Shown piece by piece: positions 4,388 through 36,924 of a DNA stretch of 64,000 nt. The notes beneath the pieces are model-generated. The model did not search any database. It had not been told where the DNA came from and saw nothing but the letters and a program-made list of their open reading frames with translations. Source of the stretch: Kofleriaceae bacterium (GTDB lineage: Bacteria > Myxococcota_A > Polyangia > Haliangiales > Haliangiaceae); the NCBI GenBank assembly GCA_013368795.1, contig JABFXX010000408.1, forward strand, positions 1 through 64,000, read 5' to 3'. Both the position numbers and the translations under genes were made by a program. The number at the start of each line of letters is the position of its first letter. Position 1 is the first letter of the stretch.

Positions 4388-5662
4388 CTAGAACACGGTT
4401 CCGTCGGACGCGATCTGGATCGGCGGTCCGCCGGTCGGGCGCAGCCGTGCAGCGACGGCGCGTCCCGCGGCCCACGTCCCACCCTCGAGGATGTTCGCGA
4501 GCGGCAGCTGAGTCGGCGTCTTGCCGAGCCGTTCGCGCACGCGCTCGGCGACGCGATCGAGCAGCGCGACGGTGAGCGCGCGCCACTCGACGATCACCTC
4601 GTCGCCGGGAGAGTGAACCTCGCCGCGAACCGCGTCGTGCTTCGGCACGAGCACGCCGAGATCGATGAGCAGGCCGCCGTTGCGATACTCGGGCAAGCCG
4701 GTGAGCGCGCCGGGCTGCGCGATCGTGTGACCCGCGCGCTGGAGCGGCTCGAACAGCGAGTACGAGAGCCACTGCGAGAGCTTGTGAAACGGCACGAGGC
4801 CGGCCGACGATCCGGTGCCGCCGGCGTACGGATGGCGCCAGACGTCGCCCATGTTGACGCCGGCGAGCTCGATGCGACCCGGCCAGATCGGCCCCAGACC
4901 GTCGAGCAGCGCGTGCAGGATCGCGGGCGCCTCGATCGGCGTCGAGATGCCGTGGAAGCTGTACGACGCGCCAGGCGCCTTCTTCTCGGCGGCGATCCAC
5001 AGCAGGTGATCGAGCAGCGAGCCGGGCCGCTCCTGCGGGAAGATCATCGGCGCGTTGATCATCGCGTCGCCGAGCGAGCGCACGAGGTTGATGCGGCCGT
5101 CGACGCCGACGAGCGGGTTCGCGTCGCTGACCTGGAATGCGTCGGCGAGCGCGCGCGGCTCGAGCGTCTTCAGCGCCGACGCATCGACGCGCAGCGGCTG
5201 CGACGGATCGGCCGAGAACAGACCGGCCTCGAACGCGTGGTAGCTCGCGACCGCGAGTCCCTCGGAGCGGCCGATCGAGAGTCCGGTGCCCGGCTCGCGG
5301 AACCGCCACGCGTCGCCGGCGCCCGCGTCGAGCAGCACCGAGACCATGACGAGGTCGATCCACGCGCGCGATTGCTCGTCGGCGGGAAGGCTCGCGAGCT
5401 TGGCGTCGAGCTGGGCGACGCGATCGACGCCGCCGGCGCGGAAGTGGTTGATGCGGCCGTGAACCGGGATGTCGAGCGTCGGGTAGTGCGCGCGCGTCAC
5501 CGCGATGACTTCGTCGACGACACCGGACAGCGCGCCGAGGTCGACCGCGAAGTGCGAGAGCTGCCCGCGCAGGCCCGCGTCGAGGATGTTCTCGCAGCGA
5601 GCGCGAATGGCGAGCGGCGAGCGGAGGTACGCGACCGCAGTCTCGGCTTCGCTCGACGACAT
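4388..5662 (-). CDS. DUF1688 / URC4-Urg3 family uracil catabolism protein
   Basis: AVAYLRSPLAIRARCENIL, WRFREPGTG, GRSEGLAVASYHAF and WIAAEKKAPGASYSFHGISTPIEAPAI resemble the DUF1688 family. Confidence 0.85.
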   Translation of the reverse strand: MSSSEAETAVAYLRSPLAIRARCENILDAGLRGQLSHFAVDLGALSGVVDEVIAVTRAHYPTLDIPVHGRINHFRAGGVDRVAQLDAKLASLPADEQSRAWIDLVMVSVLLDAGAGDAWRFREPGTGLSIGRSEGLAVASYHAFEAGLFSADPSQPLRVDASALKTLEPRALADAFQVSDANPLVGVDGRINLVRSLGDAMINAPMIFPQERPGSLLDHLLWIAAEKKAPGASYSFHGISTPIEAPAILHALLDGLGPIWPGRIELAGVNMGDVWRHPYAGGTGSSAGLVPFHKLSQWLSYSLFEPLQRAGHTIAQPGALTGLPEYRNGGLLIDLGVLVPKHDAVRGEVHSPGDEVIVEWRALTVALLDRVAERVRERLGKTPTQLPLANILEGGTWAAGRAVAARLRPTGGPPIQIASDGTVF

Positions 5663-5760
5663 CAAGGCACACAGGCTACCGGACGTGCCGGGCGACCGCC
5701 AAGGGTCACATGACGTTCGTGACGAAACGCTGGCGCCGGAACCGGGTTTACGAGAACCGA

Positions 5761-7020
<1,260 letters not shown>

Positions 7021-31716: not shown

Positions 31717-32091
31717 ATGCGCAAGGAACGTCGGCGCCGCCGCGCCGAAACTCAGACTCTCGCGATGAGGTACCAGCTCGACGATTGCTGCCGCGATGGC
31801 GCGATCCAGGCCATGGTGATCGCCGACAGCGAAGGCCTGCCGCTCGCGTCTGCGGGAGATTCGTACGCGTGCGACGAGGTCGCGGCGCGGATGGTCCACG
31901 TCGGCGCCCGCATCAAGGAGTTCAACGGCACGCTGCTCGGCGGCGGCACGCGGTGGGACGTGCAGATGACGAAGGTCAGCGTCGACGGCAGTGAGCTGCT
32001 CGTCTGCGCGGTCGGCGGTACGCCCGAGCAGCGCAAGCGCCAGATCGCGCGCGGCGCAGCGGGTGCGCTGCGGATCCTGCACGCGGCGTGA
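31717..32091 (+). CDS. Roadblock/LC7-like domain protein
   Basis: AIQAMVIADSEGLPLASAGDSY; C-terminal part of track ORF 29884..32091. Confidence 0.6.
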   Translation: MRKERRRRRAETQTLAMRYQLDDCCRDGAIQAMVIADSEGLPLASAGDSYACDEVAARMVHVGARIKEFNGTLLGGGTRWDVQMTKVSVDGSELLVCAVGGTPEQRKRQIARGAAGALRILHAA

Positions 32092-32127: not shown

Positions 32128-32586
32128 ATGCGCACCGCGATTCTTCTGACGGTCGTCCTCGCCGCGTGTAGCTCGCCGAAGTCCAAGTCGGACGTGGGCA
32201 CCGATGAGGCCGCGAAGCTCTTGCTCGATCGCAACTGGATCGATCGCATGCCCCAGACGGAGCGCGACAAGCTGCACGTCTATCGCTTCGTGCCGTCGAT
32301 GGGCGGCGGTGTGTTCCAGGACCGCACGATCTTCAAGGGCACGTTCGAGCTGTTCATGTTCAAGGTCGAGGGCGACCACATCCGGTTTGTCCTGCCCGAG
32401 ACCAAGCAGGACGTGCGCAGCCAGTTCAAGATCGAGAACGTGTCGGGACCCGAGCCGTTCGATCTGAAGCTGACGGTGTTCTCGGATCCGCGCGGTCCGC
32501 ACGAGTACTACGGCATGCGCAGCGAGACCGACCGGAACGGTCAGCAGCTCGAGCAGCGGCTACACGCGCTGCCCGCTGCGAAGTGA
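32128..32586 (+). CDS. Hypothetical lipoprotein (152 aa)
   Basis: Lipobox VLAACSS. Confidence 0.65.
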   Translation: MRTAILLTVVLAACSSPKSKSDVGTDEAAKLLLDRNWIDRMPQTERDKLHVYRFVPSMGGGVFQDRTIFKGTFELFMFKVEGDHIRFVLPETKQDVRSQFKIENVSGPEPFDLKLTVFSDPRGPHEYYGMRSETDRNGQQLEQRLHALPAAK

Positions 32587-33831
32587 TCTGCGGCTGATCT
32601 GGACGAGCCGCTCCGCCGGCAGATCCGCGTGCGGATCCGGTGCGTCGAGCGGCTCGACGACGAGCTCGAACAGGCCGCAATCGAACGGCGTGCCCGGCGC
32701 GGGCGTCGCCGGGACGATGCGCTCGCGCAGGCCCTGCTTCGCCAGCGTGCGCGCGCGGTAGTGGCAGTACGGGTTATTGCCCGGCCTGCCGAGCACGCTG
32801 TGCGCGGTGAAGCTGCAGCCTCCCATGCACGTGGCGGCGAACGGGCAGGTCCGGCAGAACCCCCACAGATCGTCGACGGTGCGGTGCCGCGTGAACGCGA
32901 GCTGCGGCGCGTGGTCCCAGATCTCGGCGAGCGGGCGTGCGCGGACGTTGCCGCCGACGTACGGCGCGCTCTGCAGCGACGGGCAGCCCTTCACGCCGCC
33001 GTCGGCCTCGATGCCCATCACGAAGCGTCCGGCCTGGCAGCCCTGCCAGTGATCGCGGTCGGTCTCGGCGACCGAGCGCAGCAGTGTCTCCTCGGGACCG
33101 AAGTAGCCGAGGTTGTTGCCGGGCGTGATCACGATGCCGTCCGTGCGAGCGCGCTGCTTGAGCGCGGCGATACGTGGCACGACATCGGTCAGCTCCCATG
33201 GCTGGAGCAGTAGCTCGGGGCGATCGGCGGCGCGGCCGAGCGGCGCGGTCAGCTGGATCTGCCACGAGCCGATGCCCCTGGCGCGGAGCAGCTCGTAGAG
33301 CGGCTCGAGGTCGCGATGGTTCAGGCGATTGAGGTTGATGTTCGACGACGTCGGCACGCCCGCGGCGCGCAGCCGATCGAGTGCGGTCATCGCCGCGCCC
33401 CAGCTGCCGCGCAGGTTGCGCATGCGATCGTGCGTGGCCGGCAGGCCGTCGATCGAGACGCCGGCGTGCGTGAGCCCGGCGCTCGCGAGCTCGCGCGCCA
33501 GCTCGTCGGTGATCCCGCGCCCGCCGGTGACGAGCGCGGCGCCGATGCCGCGTGCGGTGAGCGCGCGGACGATCGCGAGGAACCCGTCGTGGAGGTACGC
33601 CTCGCCGCCGATCAGCGCGACCTCACGCGCGCCCAGCGCGGCGAGCTGGTCGACGACACCGAGCGCCTCGTCGGTGGACAGCTCGCCATCGCGCGCGACG
33701 CCGGCGCGCGAGCCGCAGTGGGTGCACGCGTGATCGCAGCGCAGCGTCAGCTCCCACACGACGTACGCCGGGAACGGCCGCTCGCGCACGACGTTCAGCC
33801 GCCTCCGATCGCGGCTGTCGCGCTCGGTCAC
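32560..33831 (-). CDS. Radical SAM protein with SPASM domain
   Basis: CDHACTHC (CxxxCxxC) and SPASM pattern CQAGRFVMGIEADGGVKGC...CRTCPFAATCMGGC...C. Confidence 0.93.
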   Translation of the reverse strand: MTERDSRDRRRLNVVRERPFPAYVVWELTLRCDHACTHCGSRAGVARDGELSTDEALGVVDQLAALGAREVALIGGEAYLHDGFLAIVRALTARGIGAALVTGGRGITDELARELASAGLTHAGVSIDGLPATHDRMRNLRGSWGAAMTALDRLRAAGVPTSSNINLNRLNHRDLEPLYELLRARGIGSWQIQLTAPLGRAADRPELLLQPWELTDVVPRIAALKQRARTDGIVITPGNNLGYFGPEETLLRSVAETDRDHWQGCQAGRFVMGIEADGGVKGCPSLQSAPYVGGNVRARPLAEIWDHAPQLAFTRHRTVDDLWGFCRTCPFAATCMGGCSFTAHSVLGRPGNNPYCHYRARTLAKQGLRERIVPATPAPGTPFDCGLFELVVEPLDAPDPHADLPAERLVQISRRSLRSGQRV

Positions 33832-34223
33832 TCGGCTGCCTTCGGCTCGCTCGGCGGCTCGGCGACCTTCATCGACGTGTCGCGCCAACCGTCGACGCCG
33901 TCGCAGTTCTGGTCGACGCCGTCGCCGAACACGTCGGCGGCGCCGGGGTAGCGATTGCGATTGTTGTCGTCGCAATCGATCTCGTTGCTCGCGCCGTCGC
34001 CGTCGACGTCTGCCGGTCCACCGGATTGCGGCCCCGGGCGATAGCGGCCGGCCGGGCCGTAGCACGCGGCGAGCAGCACCGCGCCGGTCGCACCGACGAG
34101 CGCGCGCAGGATCTTGCCGCTCTTTGCGAGCAGCGTCGGCGCAGGCAGCGGCGCGTCGCAGTGCAGGCAGGCGAGCGCGGCACCGCGCGGGGTCAGGCCA
34201 TTACAGCGAGGGCAGGTGTGCAT
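33828..34223 (-). CDS. Zinc-ribbon + TM + MopE-like metal-binding-motif protein (131 aa)
   Basis: CPRCNG...CLHC; ILRALVGATGAVLLAAC; DVDGDGASNEIDCDDNNRNRYPGAADVFGDGVDQNCDGVDG. Confidence 0.8.
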   Translation of the reverse strand: MHTCPRCNGLTPRGAALACLHCDAPLPAPTLLAKSGKILRALVGATGAVLLAACYGPAGRYRPGPQSGGPADVDGDGASNEIDCDDNNRNRYPGAADVFGDGVDQNCDGVDGWRDTSMKVAEPPSEPKAAE

Positions 34224-34257: not shown

Positions 34258-36924
34258 TTACAGCGGGCGCCGGCGTCGCCCCGCGATCGCGATCACGCCG
34301 AGCGTGAGGAGGATCGAGCCTTCGCCGCCACTTGCCGAGCAGCAGCCGCCACCGCCGGACTCGATCATGTCGACGCATTCGCGCGTGCAACCATCGTCGT
34401 CGAGCAGGTTACCGTCGTCGCACTGCTCGCCGACGTCGAGGTAGCCGTCGCCGCAGCGCGCGATCTTCGTCAGCGCGACGATGCACACGTCGTCGAGGTT
34501 CCAGCCGCCGAGCTGCTTGCTGCCGTCGGTCTGCAGCGACCACTTGATCTGCAGCATGCCGTCGCGCACGTACGGCGTGACGTCGATGTCGTGCAACCGC
34601 CACTCGCGATCGACGTGATCGAGCCCGCCGTTTTGCGCCTGCTTGTTGCGCCACACCTCGGTGTCGTTCGCGCTGATCGATGCCTGGTCGTACGTCGCGT
34701 CCTCGACGGTGAGCCAGCGCCGATACTGCAGGTGCACCTGATCGAAGCTGCCGACGTCGATCAGCGGGCTGTACGCCGCCGACACGAGGTTCGCGCGGTA
34801 GCGGCCATCGCTGCTGACATCGGTCCCGAACACGCCGCCGCCGGAGTACGCGCTCGCCGGATCGCCCCCGGGGCCGGACGCCTGCGGCATGCCCCACTGC
34901 CACTCGAAGCCGACGTTGCTCGACTGCTCCCAGTTCGGATCGGCGTCGAACGACTCGCACCACACGCGCTTCGGCTCGCCGAGCATGAGCTGATAGAGCG
35001 GATCGGCCGCGTTCGTCGGGAACGCCTGCGTCGTGCCGTCGTCGTACTCGACCTCGACGGAATACGACACGACGGTGCCATCGGGCAGCGCGGGCAGCTC
35101 GCCCGTCCAGGTCGAGCCTTCGGCGACGAGCTCGAATACGCTCGGCACGCCATCGCCGACCTGCCACGCGACGGAGATCCGCGTGACGGTCATCGCCGGG
35201 CAGGCGGTATCGGTCGGCGTGTCGACGGTCAGCGTGAGCTTGCGTCCGTCGACGGCGGGCGTCGACACGGTCGTGCCGCGATAGCCGTCGACGAGGCCGT
35301 GGCGGCCGAACGCGCGCTCGATCGCGCAGTAGTTCGGCGTGCCGTTGTCGAGGTCGGCATCGTCGTCGTCGGCGATGAGCGCGGCCTCGAACGTCTTCGG
35401 GAGGTCGCTCGAGCGCGCCATCACGCCGGTGAAGATCCTGTCGATCTGCTGGCGCCCCTGTGCGGCCCCGAGCCCGGCGACGAGCAGCTTGCGCAGGTCC
35501 CACAGCGTGCCCGAGATGATGAGCCCGGTGATGTGCGGGTCGAAGTCGACGTCGATCGGATAGACGCGCTCGTAGCCGCTCGGATCGATGTGCCGCAGCG
35601 GCGAGTCGTCGTAGTACATGCCGCGGCCGACCGCAGGATCGTCGGTGATGTTTGCCGCGAAGAAATCCGCGAGGCCCTCGCCGAGATGGCCGTCGGAGTC
35701 GCCGCCGGCGCCGGGGATCACGGTGTGCGAGTGCACCGAGTGTCCGAACTCGTGAAACACGATGTCGCCGACGCGGCCCGTGTTCTGGCACGTCGTGCTC
35801 GACCGAAAGAAGTGGACGTCGTTGCCCGTCGAGTACGCGTTGCACTCGCCGCTCTCGTTGACGAAGAAGTCGAGCTGCTGGTCGAGCCAAGGCGCGAGCG
35901 CCGGGTTGACGATGCGCGCCTGCGCCTTCGCGACGGTGGCGTATATGAACGTCGAGAGCTGCGCGTCGGAGAGCTCGTCGCTCGAGAGATTCCACACCGC
36001 CGATTGCCCGGGCTGGACCGGCAGCGAACCGGTCGCGAGCGCGCCCGCCTGGTTGATGATCCGCACATCCGGTCCCGACAGACCGGGCGTGACCGTCGCC
36101 GCCGAGCTGCCGGTCCACGAGAACGAGCCGTTCGCTGCGGTCGTCGTCGCGAGCGAGTTGACCGTGATCGCGGCGTTGCCAACCGCGAGGTCGTCGCGTG
36201 CGCCGTTCGCGTGGCGCAGGCCGGCGTTGTACTTCAGCGTGCCGGTCGCGAACATGATCTTGCTGTCGCGCGCGAGCGGCGTGCCGTCGGCGGCGACGTA
36301 GACATCCCAGCGATCCGGCGAGGTCGTCGACGCGACATCGAGCACGTCGGCGACGCGGTAGCCACCGCTCGTCTCGACGACGACGCGCTCGCCCGTTGGC
36401 GTCGCCGCGGTCGTCAGCGCCGTGTCGGCGAGCATCCACGCCTCGACGCGGCCGCGCATCGCCGAGTACGCGGCGCGCGTCGTCGGCACCGCGGGTGTCA
36501 CGTTCGGCTTCGCGCCGTCGAGCACCGCGAACAGCCGGTCGCCGCGCGGGCCGCGGCCGAACACGACCGCGAGCTGAGCGCCGACGACGCGCATGCCGCG
36601 ATACGTCTGGCGAAACCCGACGGTGCGCAGCTCGCCGTCGCGCGAGTTGCCGATGACGATGAAGTCCGCGGCGGTCGCGCCCGGCGCGAGCTGGGCGATC
36701 CGCGCGGCGAGGAACGCGCGCGCCTCTCGCTCGGCGATCGCACCGTCGTCGACGGCGCCGGGCGCATCGATCGGTCCGCCGGCGATCCGCGTGATCTTGC
36801 CGGCGGTCTGGGTCGCGGGCTTGCCTGCAGCGGACCCGAGCTTGCGCGGCGCGAACGCGTACCCCGGAGCGCTCGCGAGGAGCACGGCGAGGGCGAGGAC
36901 TGCGCGCACGCCCAACCATGGCAC
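34258..36924 (-). CDS. M36 (fungalysin-like) metallopeptidase with MYXO-CTERM-like tail
   Basis: HEFGHSVHSH zinc motif; signal peptide MPWLGVRAVLALAVLLASAPGYA; C-term GGGGCCSASGGEGSILLTLGVIAIAGRRRRPL. Confidence 0.9.
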   Translation of the reverse strand: MPWLGVRAVLALAVLLASAPGYAFAPRKLGSAAGKPATQTAGKITRIAGGPIDAPGAVDDGAIAEREARAFLAARIAQLAPGATAADFIVIGNSRDGELRTVGFRQTYRGMRVVGAQLAVVFGRGPRGDRLFAVLDGAKPNVTPAVPTTRAAYSAMRGRVEAWMLADTALTTAATPTGERVVVETSGGYRVADVLDVASTTSPDRWDVYVAADGTPLARDSKIMFATGTLKYNAGLRHANGARDDLAVGNAAITVNSLATTTAANGSFSWTGSSAATVTPGLSGPDVRIINQAGALATGSLPVQPGQSAVWNLSSDELSDAQLSTFIYATVAKAQARIVNPALAPWLDQQLDFFVNESGECNAYSTGNDVHFFRSSTTCQNTGRVGDIVFHEFGHSVHSHTVIPGAGGDSDGHLGEGLADFFAANITDDPAVGRGMYYDDSPLRHIDPSGYERVYPIDVDFDPHITGLIISGTLWDLRKLLVAGLGAAQGRQQIDRIFTGVMARSSDLPKTFEAALIADDDDADLDNGTPNYCAIERAFGRHGLVDGYRGTTVSTPAVDGRKLTLTVDTPTDTACPAMTVTRISVAWQVGDGVPSVFELVAEGSTWTGELPALPDGTVVSYSVEVEYDDGTTQAFPTNAADPLYQLMLGEPKRVWCESFDADPNWEQSSNVGFEWQWGMPQASGPGGDPASAYSGGGVFGTDVSSDGRYRANLVSAAYSPLIDVGSFDQVHLQYRRWLTVEDATYDQASISANDTEVWRNKQAQNGGLDHVDREWRLHDIDVTPYVRDGMLQIKWSLQTDGSKQLGGWNLDDVCIVALTKIARCGDGYLDVGEQCDDGNLLDDDGCTRECVDMIESGGGGCCSASGGEGSILLTLGVIAIAGRRRRPL

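Follow-up and report, generated by a model that had tools for sequence, protein, structure and literature searches.

In the 64-kb stretch of Kofleriaceae DNA analyzed here (hereafter, the window), a radical SAM/SPASM enzyme is encoded in overlap with a 131-aa partner carrying an N-terminal zinc ribbon, a lipobox-like sequence and a Cys-Tyr-Gly (CYG) motif, and comparison of related loci indicates that this pairing recurs across Myxococcota families. Given the kinship of the enzyme and the constant elements of its partners, it is likely that the two form a splicease-type system in which the enzyme edits the ribbon-docked partner at CYG before the partner is exported as a lipoprotein. The partners appear to be a large family of bacterial lipoproteins, so far little known, that undergo chemical editing.

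The enzyme and its partner are encoded by overlapping genes

An earlier note on this DNA had described an overlap between the two genes, and our coordinates bear this out, with the sequence GTGA common to the stop of the partner gene and the start of the enzyme gene (Table 1). Both genes were kept by a codon-usage gene call and are read as coding. A mechanically derived ORF of 501 aa for the enzyme was rejected as an over-extension. The partner is the sole reading frame across the window that combines a ribbon with Tyr-Gly (YG). The gene pair is confirmed as real, and the pairing as exceeding chance.

Table 1. Features of the gene pair, in coordinates of the window
Feature	Position	Strand	Evidence and remarks
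Radical SAM/SPASM enzyme, 423 aa; GTG start at 33831, stop ends 32560	32560..33831	-	Splicease-like; PF04055, PF13186; TIGR04103/TIGR03913; AlphaFold
CX3CX2C motif of enzyme (C32, C36, C39), SAM-binding [4Fe-4S] cluster	33715..33738	-	Invariant in alignments of 16 and 22 relatives
SPASM cysteines of enzyme (C265, C283, C326, C329, C335, C339, C356; CX17C ... CX2CX5CX3C ... C)	32764..33039	-	All seven invariant in alignments of 16 and 22 relatives
Partner, 131 aa; ATG at 34223, stop ends 33828; ribbon, hydrophobic helix/lipobox, CYG, MopE motif	33828..34223	-	Predicted substrate
Zinc ribbon of partner, CPRC...CLHC, residues 4-22 (C4, C7, C19, C22)	34158..34214	-	Predicted docking/leader module; four Cys invariant
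Hydrophobic helix of partner, residues 32-55, overlapping lipobox-like LLAAC (residues 50-54)	34059..34130	-	Structure prediction; conservation
CYG of partner, residues 54-56	34056..34064	-	Predicted tyramine-splicing site (X-Tyr-Gly); invariant in 40 partners
MopE-type metal-binding motif of partner, DCDDNN...NCDG, residues 83-109	33897..33977	-	PF11617; passenger, not constant part

The CxxC...CxxC ribbon, hydrophobic helix and MopE-type motif that had been ascribed to the partner were all recovered. In the predicted structure, the ribbon (residues 1-30) is confident (pLDDT ~88) and is followed by the helix, with little regular structure beyond, and PF11617 (Cu-binding_MopE) matches residues 83-110 with an E-value of 3e-9 and 37.4 bits against a gathering score of 27. 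MopE of Methylococcus binds copper through a modified Trp. While the partner resembles MopE and PF11617 repeats to the extent of passing this score, it differs in that the motif is a single passenger present in only part of the partner family and is probably not the target of the enzyme.

The partner carries the sequence ...AVLLAAC54, in which L51-A52-A53-C54 fits the lipobox pattern [LVI][ASTVI][GAS]C, though most relatives have LMAC and the n-region, here occupied by the zinc ribbon, is unusually long. Among 40 related partners (class A, below), L51 is nearly invariant and A53 and C54 are invariant. CYG had gone unmentioned in the earlier note; the window partner contains three Tyr, of which only Tyr55 is in a YG. 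Neither a Nif11 nor an NHLP leader was found on the partner with Pfam or NCBIfam, and none of the NCBIfam models names the partners tested.

The enzyme is related to PlpX-type spliceases

Pfam identified Radical_SAM (PF04055, 1.7e-23) and SPASM (PF13186, 1.2e-7) domains in the enzyme. The best NCBIfam match was TIGR04103 (nif11-class peptide maturase 3; 460.6 bits, 3.8e-138), which we take to be the same family as IPR026482, followed by TIGR03913 (GDL-motif peptide maturase; 423.5 bits, 8e-127); the third-best family scored ~138 bits, and nothing beyond the first two exceeded 139. Since 460.6 bits misses the curated cut-off of 725 for TIGR04103 and 423.5 bits that of 591.75 for TIGR03913, filing the enzyme as a member of either family was rejected. 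The AlphaFold model (pLDDT 88, pTM 0.88) has as its nearest solved folds PqqE, SkfB and SuiB, with 15-24% identity in structural alignments; these SPASM peptide maturases have the closest solved folds, but their substrates and chemistry are different.

In a tree of 106 enzymes built by a quick method, midpoint-rooted and with 34 inner branches open, the window enzyme falls inside a clade of 47 rows (SH-aLRT 100) that are nearly all Myxococcota by record title. The neighbouring clade of 41 rows holds enzymes from Nostoc (Nif11-type) and Lyngbya, DUF1843/GDL enzymes (Azospirillum, Aureibacter and locus L181) and other Myxococcota paralogs. Judged by score and tree, the enzyme groups with PlpX-type spliceases (TIGR04103, TIGR03913) but belongs to a separate, strongly supported clade of Myxococcota. 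The proposal of the earlier note that the pair modifies a peptide or protein is in keeping with this placement, as the enzyme groups with peptide-modifying SPASM enzymes and not with families that act on other substrates.

PlpX excises tyramine from X-Tyr-Gly and has been placed in IPR026482 (PMC11002830), and the tag context taken from a natural PlpX substrate is IRPLYGLPI (PMC10533398). A Nostoc plasmid enzyme (L101) that is 48% identical to the window enzyme exceeds the TIGR04103 cut-off (853 vs 725 bits). Its gene is flanked on one side by a Nif11 precursor ending GSIALYGLPPELF and on the other by a 71-aa gene at the PlpY position, with an NHLP precursor nearby. This arrangement matches the published anatomy of the plp cluster and thus provides independent support for splicease kinship. 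The window system resembles the PlpX/PlpY spliceases (TIGR04103; Pleurocapsa plp cluster) in having a SPASM enzyme of the same branch, an adjoining precursor with X-Tyr-Gly and a similar sequence past the site (YGLP or YG-x-P). In contrast, its enzyme scores under the TIGR04103 cut-off, its predicted substrate is a zinc-ribbon, lipobox-bearing protein in which X is the lipobox Cys, and the locus lacks both PlpY and a Nif11/NHLP leader; none of the genes called near the enzyme, in the window or at orthologous loci, was PlpY-like.

A third paralogous enzyme is encoded in the genome of the window (L077, G000:C430), and a ribbon scan of that locus returned no partner with a ribbon and YG or YA. 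At its closest relative, L076, there is a ribbon protein with PIYAAAP instead of YG.

The pairing recurs across Myxococcota

Among 56 related genomes, with orthologs defined as enzymes of at least 60% identity and partners as ribbon-MopE proteins, 12 carry both genes, none the enzyme only, one the partner only and 43 neither (p = 2e-11, an optimistic value given that the genomes are related). The sole partner-only genome (G029) is 86% complete. The partner of G024 is on a separate contig, with no room beside the enzyme, and that of G031 is ~4 kb from the enzyme on the same contig. Several genomes also contain extra partner copies away from the enzyme (L096-L099), so that their modification would have to occur in trans.

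A scan of species-representative genomes confirmed at least 526 relatives of the enzyme, from which 79 loci were kept, most rows being MAG contigs. In 63 of these 79 loci, a reading frame that combines an N-terminal CxxC...CxxC with a hydrophobic segment and a YG was found within 2.5 kb of the enzyme. At two others (L120 and L122) a ribbon frame lies 3.6 kb away, and at L162 a ribbon lipoprotein with a YG is present though the automatic filter missed it. When enzymes were located by tblastn, 81 ribbon frames were counted in 359 kb near the enzyme vs 5 in 409 kb far from it, and all but one of the 81 ribbon ORFs within 2.5 kb contained a YG, vs about a third expected from shuffling. These comparisons indicate that the pairing is kept at almost every orthologous locus in the family and recurs across Myxococcota families, an outcome on which the earlier note had made its proposal depend.

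Could the lipoprotein and enzyme genes be mere neighbours, with CYG only a lipobox followed by fixed +2 and +3 residues? A samS gene and a metallopeptidase gene are likewise syntenic with the pair in several genomes, and the order samS, peptidase, partner, enzyme is retained in L062, L064, L065, L067 and L068, which belong to the family of the window. However, the pairing outlasts this synteny (L061, where the peptidase gene is gone, as well as L069, L071 and L110-L150), the YG sites of class B partners (below) lie away from the lipobox, and the co-occurrence of the two genes is difficult to reconcile with simple proximity. We therefore regard the absence of a functional link as very improbable. 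The metallopeptidase and samS were themselves considered as fixed parts of the system and rejected, since the peptidase gene is absent from L061 and neither gene adjoins the enzyme in L069 or L071.

The metallopeptidase gene (34258-36909, minus strand) is located 34 bp upstream of the pair. It encodes a secreted, fungalysin/thermolysin-like protein (HEFGH) with a weak match to an FTP propeptide, a myxobacterial Cys-rich repeat and a C-terminal tail of the Gly-Cys/hydrophobic/Arg-rich type. On the other side of the pair, a small protein (31765-32091, plus strand) has a sub-threshold Roadblock/LC7 match, and several relatives have a similar small gene close to the pair.

Two partner classes share Tyr-Gly

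The partners fall into two classes. Class A (49 proteins, from the clade of the window and a small separate group) has the ribbon, a hydrophobic stretch and L-[MAS]-A-C with YG immediately after, and X is Cys at 47 of the 49 sites. The only invariant columns in an alignment of 40 class A partners are the four ribbon Cys and A-C-Y-G, an invariance that is partly selected because the search itself asked for CxxC, YG and a Cys a short way ahead of YG, whereas the near and far counts above are unselected. The 34 proteins of class B, most of them encoded next to sister enzymes, have the ribbon followed by between one and five [X]YG[AVL]P sites, which lie in linkers or close to the C-terminus; a lipobox-like stretch is present in 26 of the 34, and the MopE motif in none. 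Class B sites are mostly YG-x-P and are located away from the lipobox, and X is Leu, Asp, Arg, Glu, Ala, Pro or Met. After removal of one YG per protein, 48 of the 58 remaining class B Tyr (83%) precede Gly, compared with a Gly frequency of 0.165 (p = 2e-28), whereas the remaining class A Tyr show no such bias (5/73). What the two classes share is therefore YG, of which each class A protein has a single site.

These data bear directly on the modification site proposed in the earlier note, the DCDD or NRNRY segment of the MopE region. The window partner has the motif, as do all 16 proteins in the closest set of partners, but PF11617 matches only 24 of the 40 class A partners, the other 16 having Thr/Glu-, Asp- or Cys-rich tails, and class B tails differ again, while C-Y-G after the lipobox-like stretch is constant. 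Moreover, NRNRY is unconserved even in the close set: within the group of the window, its Tyr gives way to His, Val, Asn, Phe or Arg. The MopE segment was therefore rejected as the site; the earlier proposal is probably wrong, and we consider that reading barely credible.

It is also conceivable that the enzyme acts on the ribbon lipoprotein at CYG but carries out another reaction, such as crosslinking of Cys to Tyr or centred on Tyr, formation of a thioether, or epimerisation. SPASM enzymes catalyse many reactions, with SkfB, SuiB and PqqE among the nearest solved structures here; the enzyme is under both splicease-related cut-offs; and Cys prevails as X in class A. However, the range of X in class B implies that Tyr-Gly is what the sites have in common and that Cys is unneeded, the spliceases are the closest characterised relatives, and LYGLPP in Nostoc matches the YGxP of the partners. 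On balance, a reaction other than splicing appears unlikely, and splicing at Tyr-Gly is the reading we favour.

The genome of the window contains a second system (L080, G000:C372, 2179-3921), in which a paralogous enzyme accompanies three ribbon lipoproteins encoded in tandem. In Lyngbya confervoides (L173, 7483-8070), a protein encoded downstream of the enzyme has a double zinc ribbon, VYGAP and IYGSP, and then an apparent FHA domain, and in an Eremiobacterota MAG (L176, 5581-5958) a protein encoded upstream of the enzyme has a lipobox and no ribbon, with VYGGP, VYGAP and VHGAP.

The ribbon as a probable docking module

An HMM of class B ribbons was searched against 1,233 neighbourhood proteins. 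Apart from the partners, it matched the C-terminal ribbons of the Azospirillum enzymes (1.4e-9 and 2.4e-9), an N-terminal ribbon in the Tropicibacter enzyme (1.7e-5), a C-terminal one in the Aureibacter enzyme (5e-4) and, immediately following the enzyme in L181, a stand-alone ribbon of 74 aa (6.9e-10); among these 1,233 proteins, all other non-partners scored 0.09 or worse, bar one 5'-truncated call of the L076 partner. The ribbon can thus be carried by the substrate, by the enzyme or separately, as one would expect if it served for docking. It looks like a docking or leader module that is not part of the product, and its distribution suggests that it takes over from PlpY or from the Nif11 leader.

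The enzymes with fused ribbons provide a second point of comparison. The GDL-motif maturases (TIGR03913) with DUF1843 peptides (Azospirillum, and similarly Aureibacter) are close to the window enzyme by score and tree, their peptides carry LYG, PYG, MYA or LYA near the N-terminus, and they have a related zinc ribbon. Unlike in the window system, this ribbon is on the enzyme and not on the substrate, and the substrates are small peptides without a lipobox. DUF1843-type peptides were absent from the gene calls around the window locus and its orthologs.

Ribbons outside the substrate also raise the possibility that the ribbon protein is a recognition helper that substitutes for PlpY, the real substrates being other YG proteins elsewhere in the genome. 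The stand-alone ribbon adjoining the enzyme in L181 and the enzyme-fused ribbons in L102, L103, L104 and L215 fit such a role. Against it, ribbon proteins of both classes themselves carry YG almost without exception, and the three tandem class B partners of L080 differ in their middles but have in common the ribbon and a C-terminal PYGAPPAR[RS]RVV. A role solely as helper is accordingly improbable, and we retain the ribbon protein as the predicted substrate.

The L181 locus (4950-7017) encodes a DUF1843-like protein with two sites (PMYGIF... and AMYGVVF...), the enzyme and the 74-aa ribbon in an apparent single operon. Ribbon-CYG-MopE proteins encoded far from any enzyme gene (L096-L100), with an enzyme elsewhere in the genome, are possible trans substrates.

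A proposed model for splicing of an exported lipoprotein

What the sequences show is the pairing, the kinship of the enzyme, the constant ribbon and YG, and the links of the ribbon to the enzyme. From these we infer that the 131-aa partner is the substrate of the enzyme and that its N-terminal zinc ribbon docks on the enzyme, performing the job of the Nif11-type leader and PlpY in cyanobacteria. The docked ribbon would present Cys54-Tyr55-Gly56 to the enzyme, and tyramine (-135 Da) would be excised from CYG in the cytoplasm. The spliced partner would then be exported as a lipoprotein, given the lipobox-like LLAAC/CYG junction, and cleavage there would discard the ribbon leader to give a membrane-anchored protein. 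An electrophilic ketoamide would thereby be left beside the lipid, followed by a variable passenger, in this case the MopE-type motif. Because X is the lipobox Cys, the conserved CYG of class A could also reflect lipoprotein processing or sorting alone.

Spliceotide ketoamides have been reported to inhibit proteases (PMC11117315, PMC10373908), and an anchored protease inhibitor or reactive anchor is therefore no more than a reasonable guess for the function. More tentatively, backbone-edited lipoproteins may occur Myxococcota-wide, with a removable docking leader, the ribbon, on the substrate, on the enzyme or alone. Editing of the residue at lipobox Cys+1 would then expose an alpha-ketoamide on the surface of the membrane, where it might act as an anchored trap that binds proteases covalently. 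Since the edited residue in the clade of the window would be lipobox Cys+1, splicing and lipidation would, on that reading, meet at one residue.

In the open literature that we searched, we found no description of zinc-ribbon-led, lipobox-bearing splicease substrates or of splicing with Cys as X; the main survey of splicease diversity, that of Scott et al. 2022 in Chem, has the word 'proteins' in its title and may overlap with these findings. The splicing chemistry, if right, is already known, and part of the findings on the partners may already have been published. If the model is true, many members of an enzyme group with more than 500 confirmed loci would edit the backbone of lipoproteins and not of small secreted peptides, by means of a movable zinc-ribbon recognition logic that is simple enough for reuse in protein engineering. 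The identity of X with the lipobox Cys raises the testable question of whether one residue can be both spliced and lipidated. Such loci are present in the named isolates Corallococcus praedator, Polyangium, Paraliomyxa miuraensis and Nannocystis exedens, which makes the idea directly testable.
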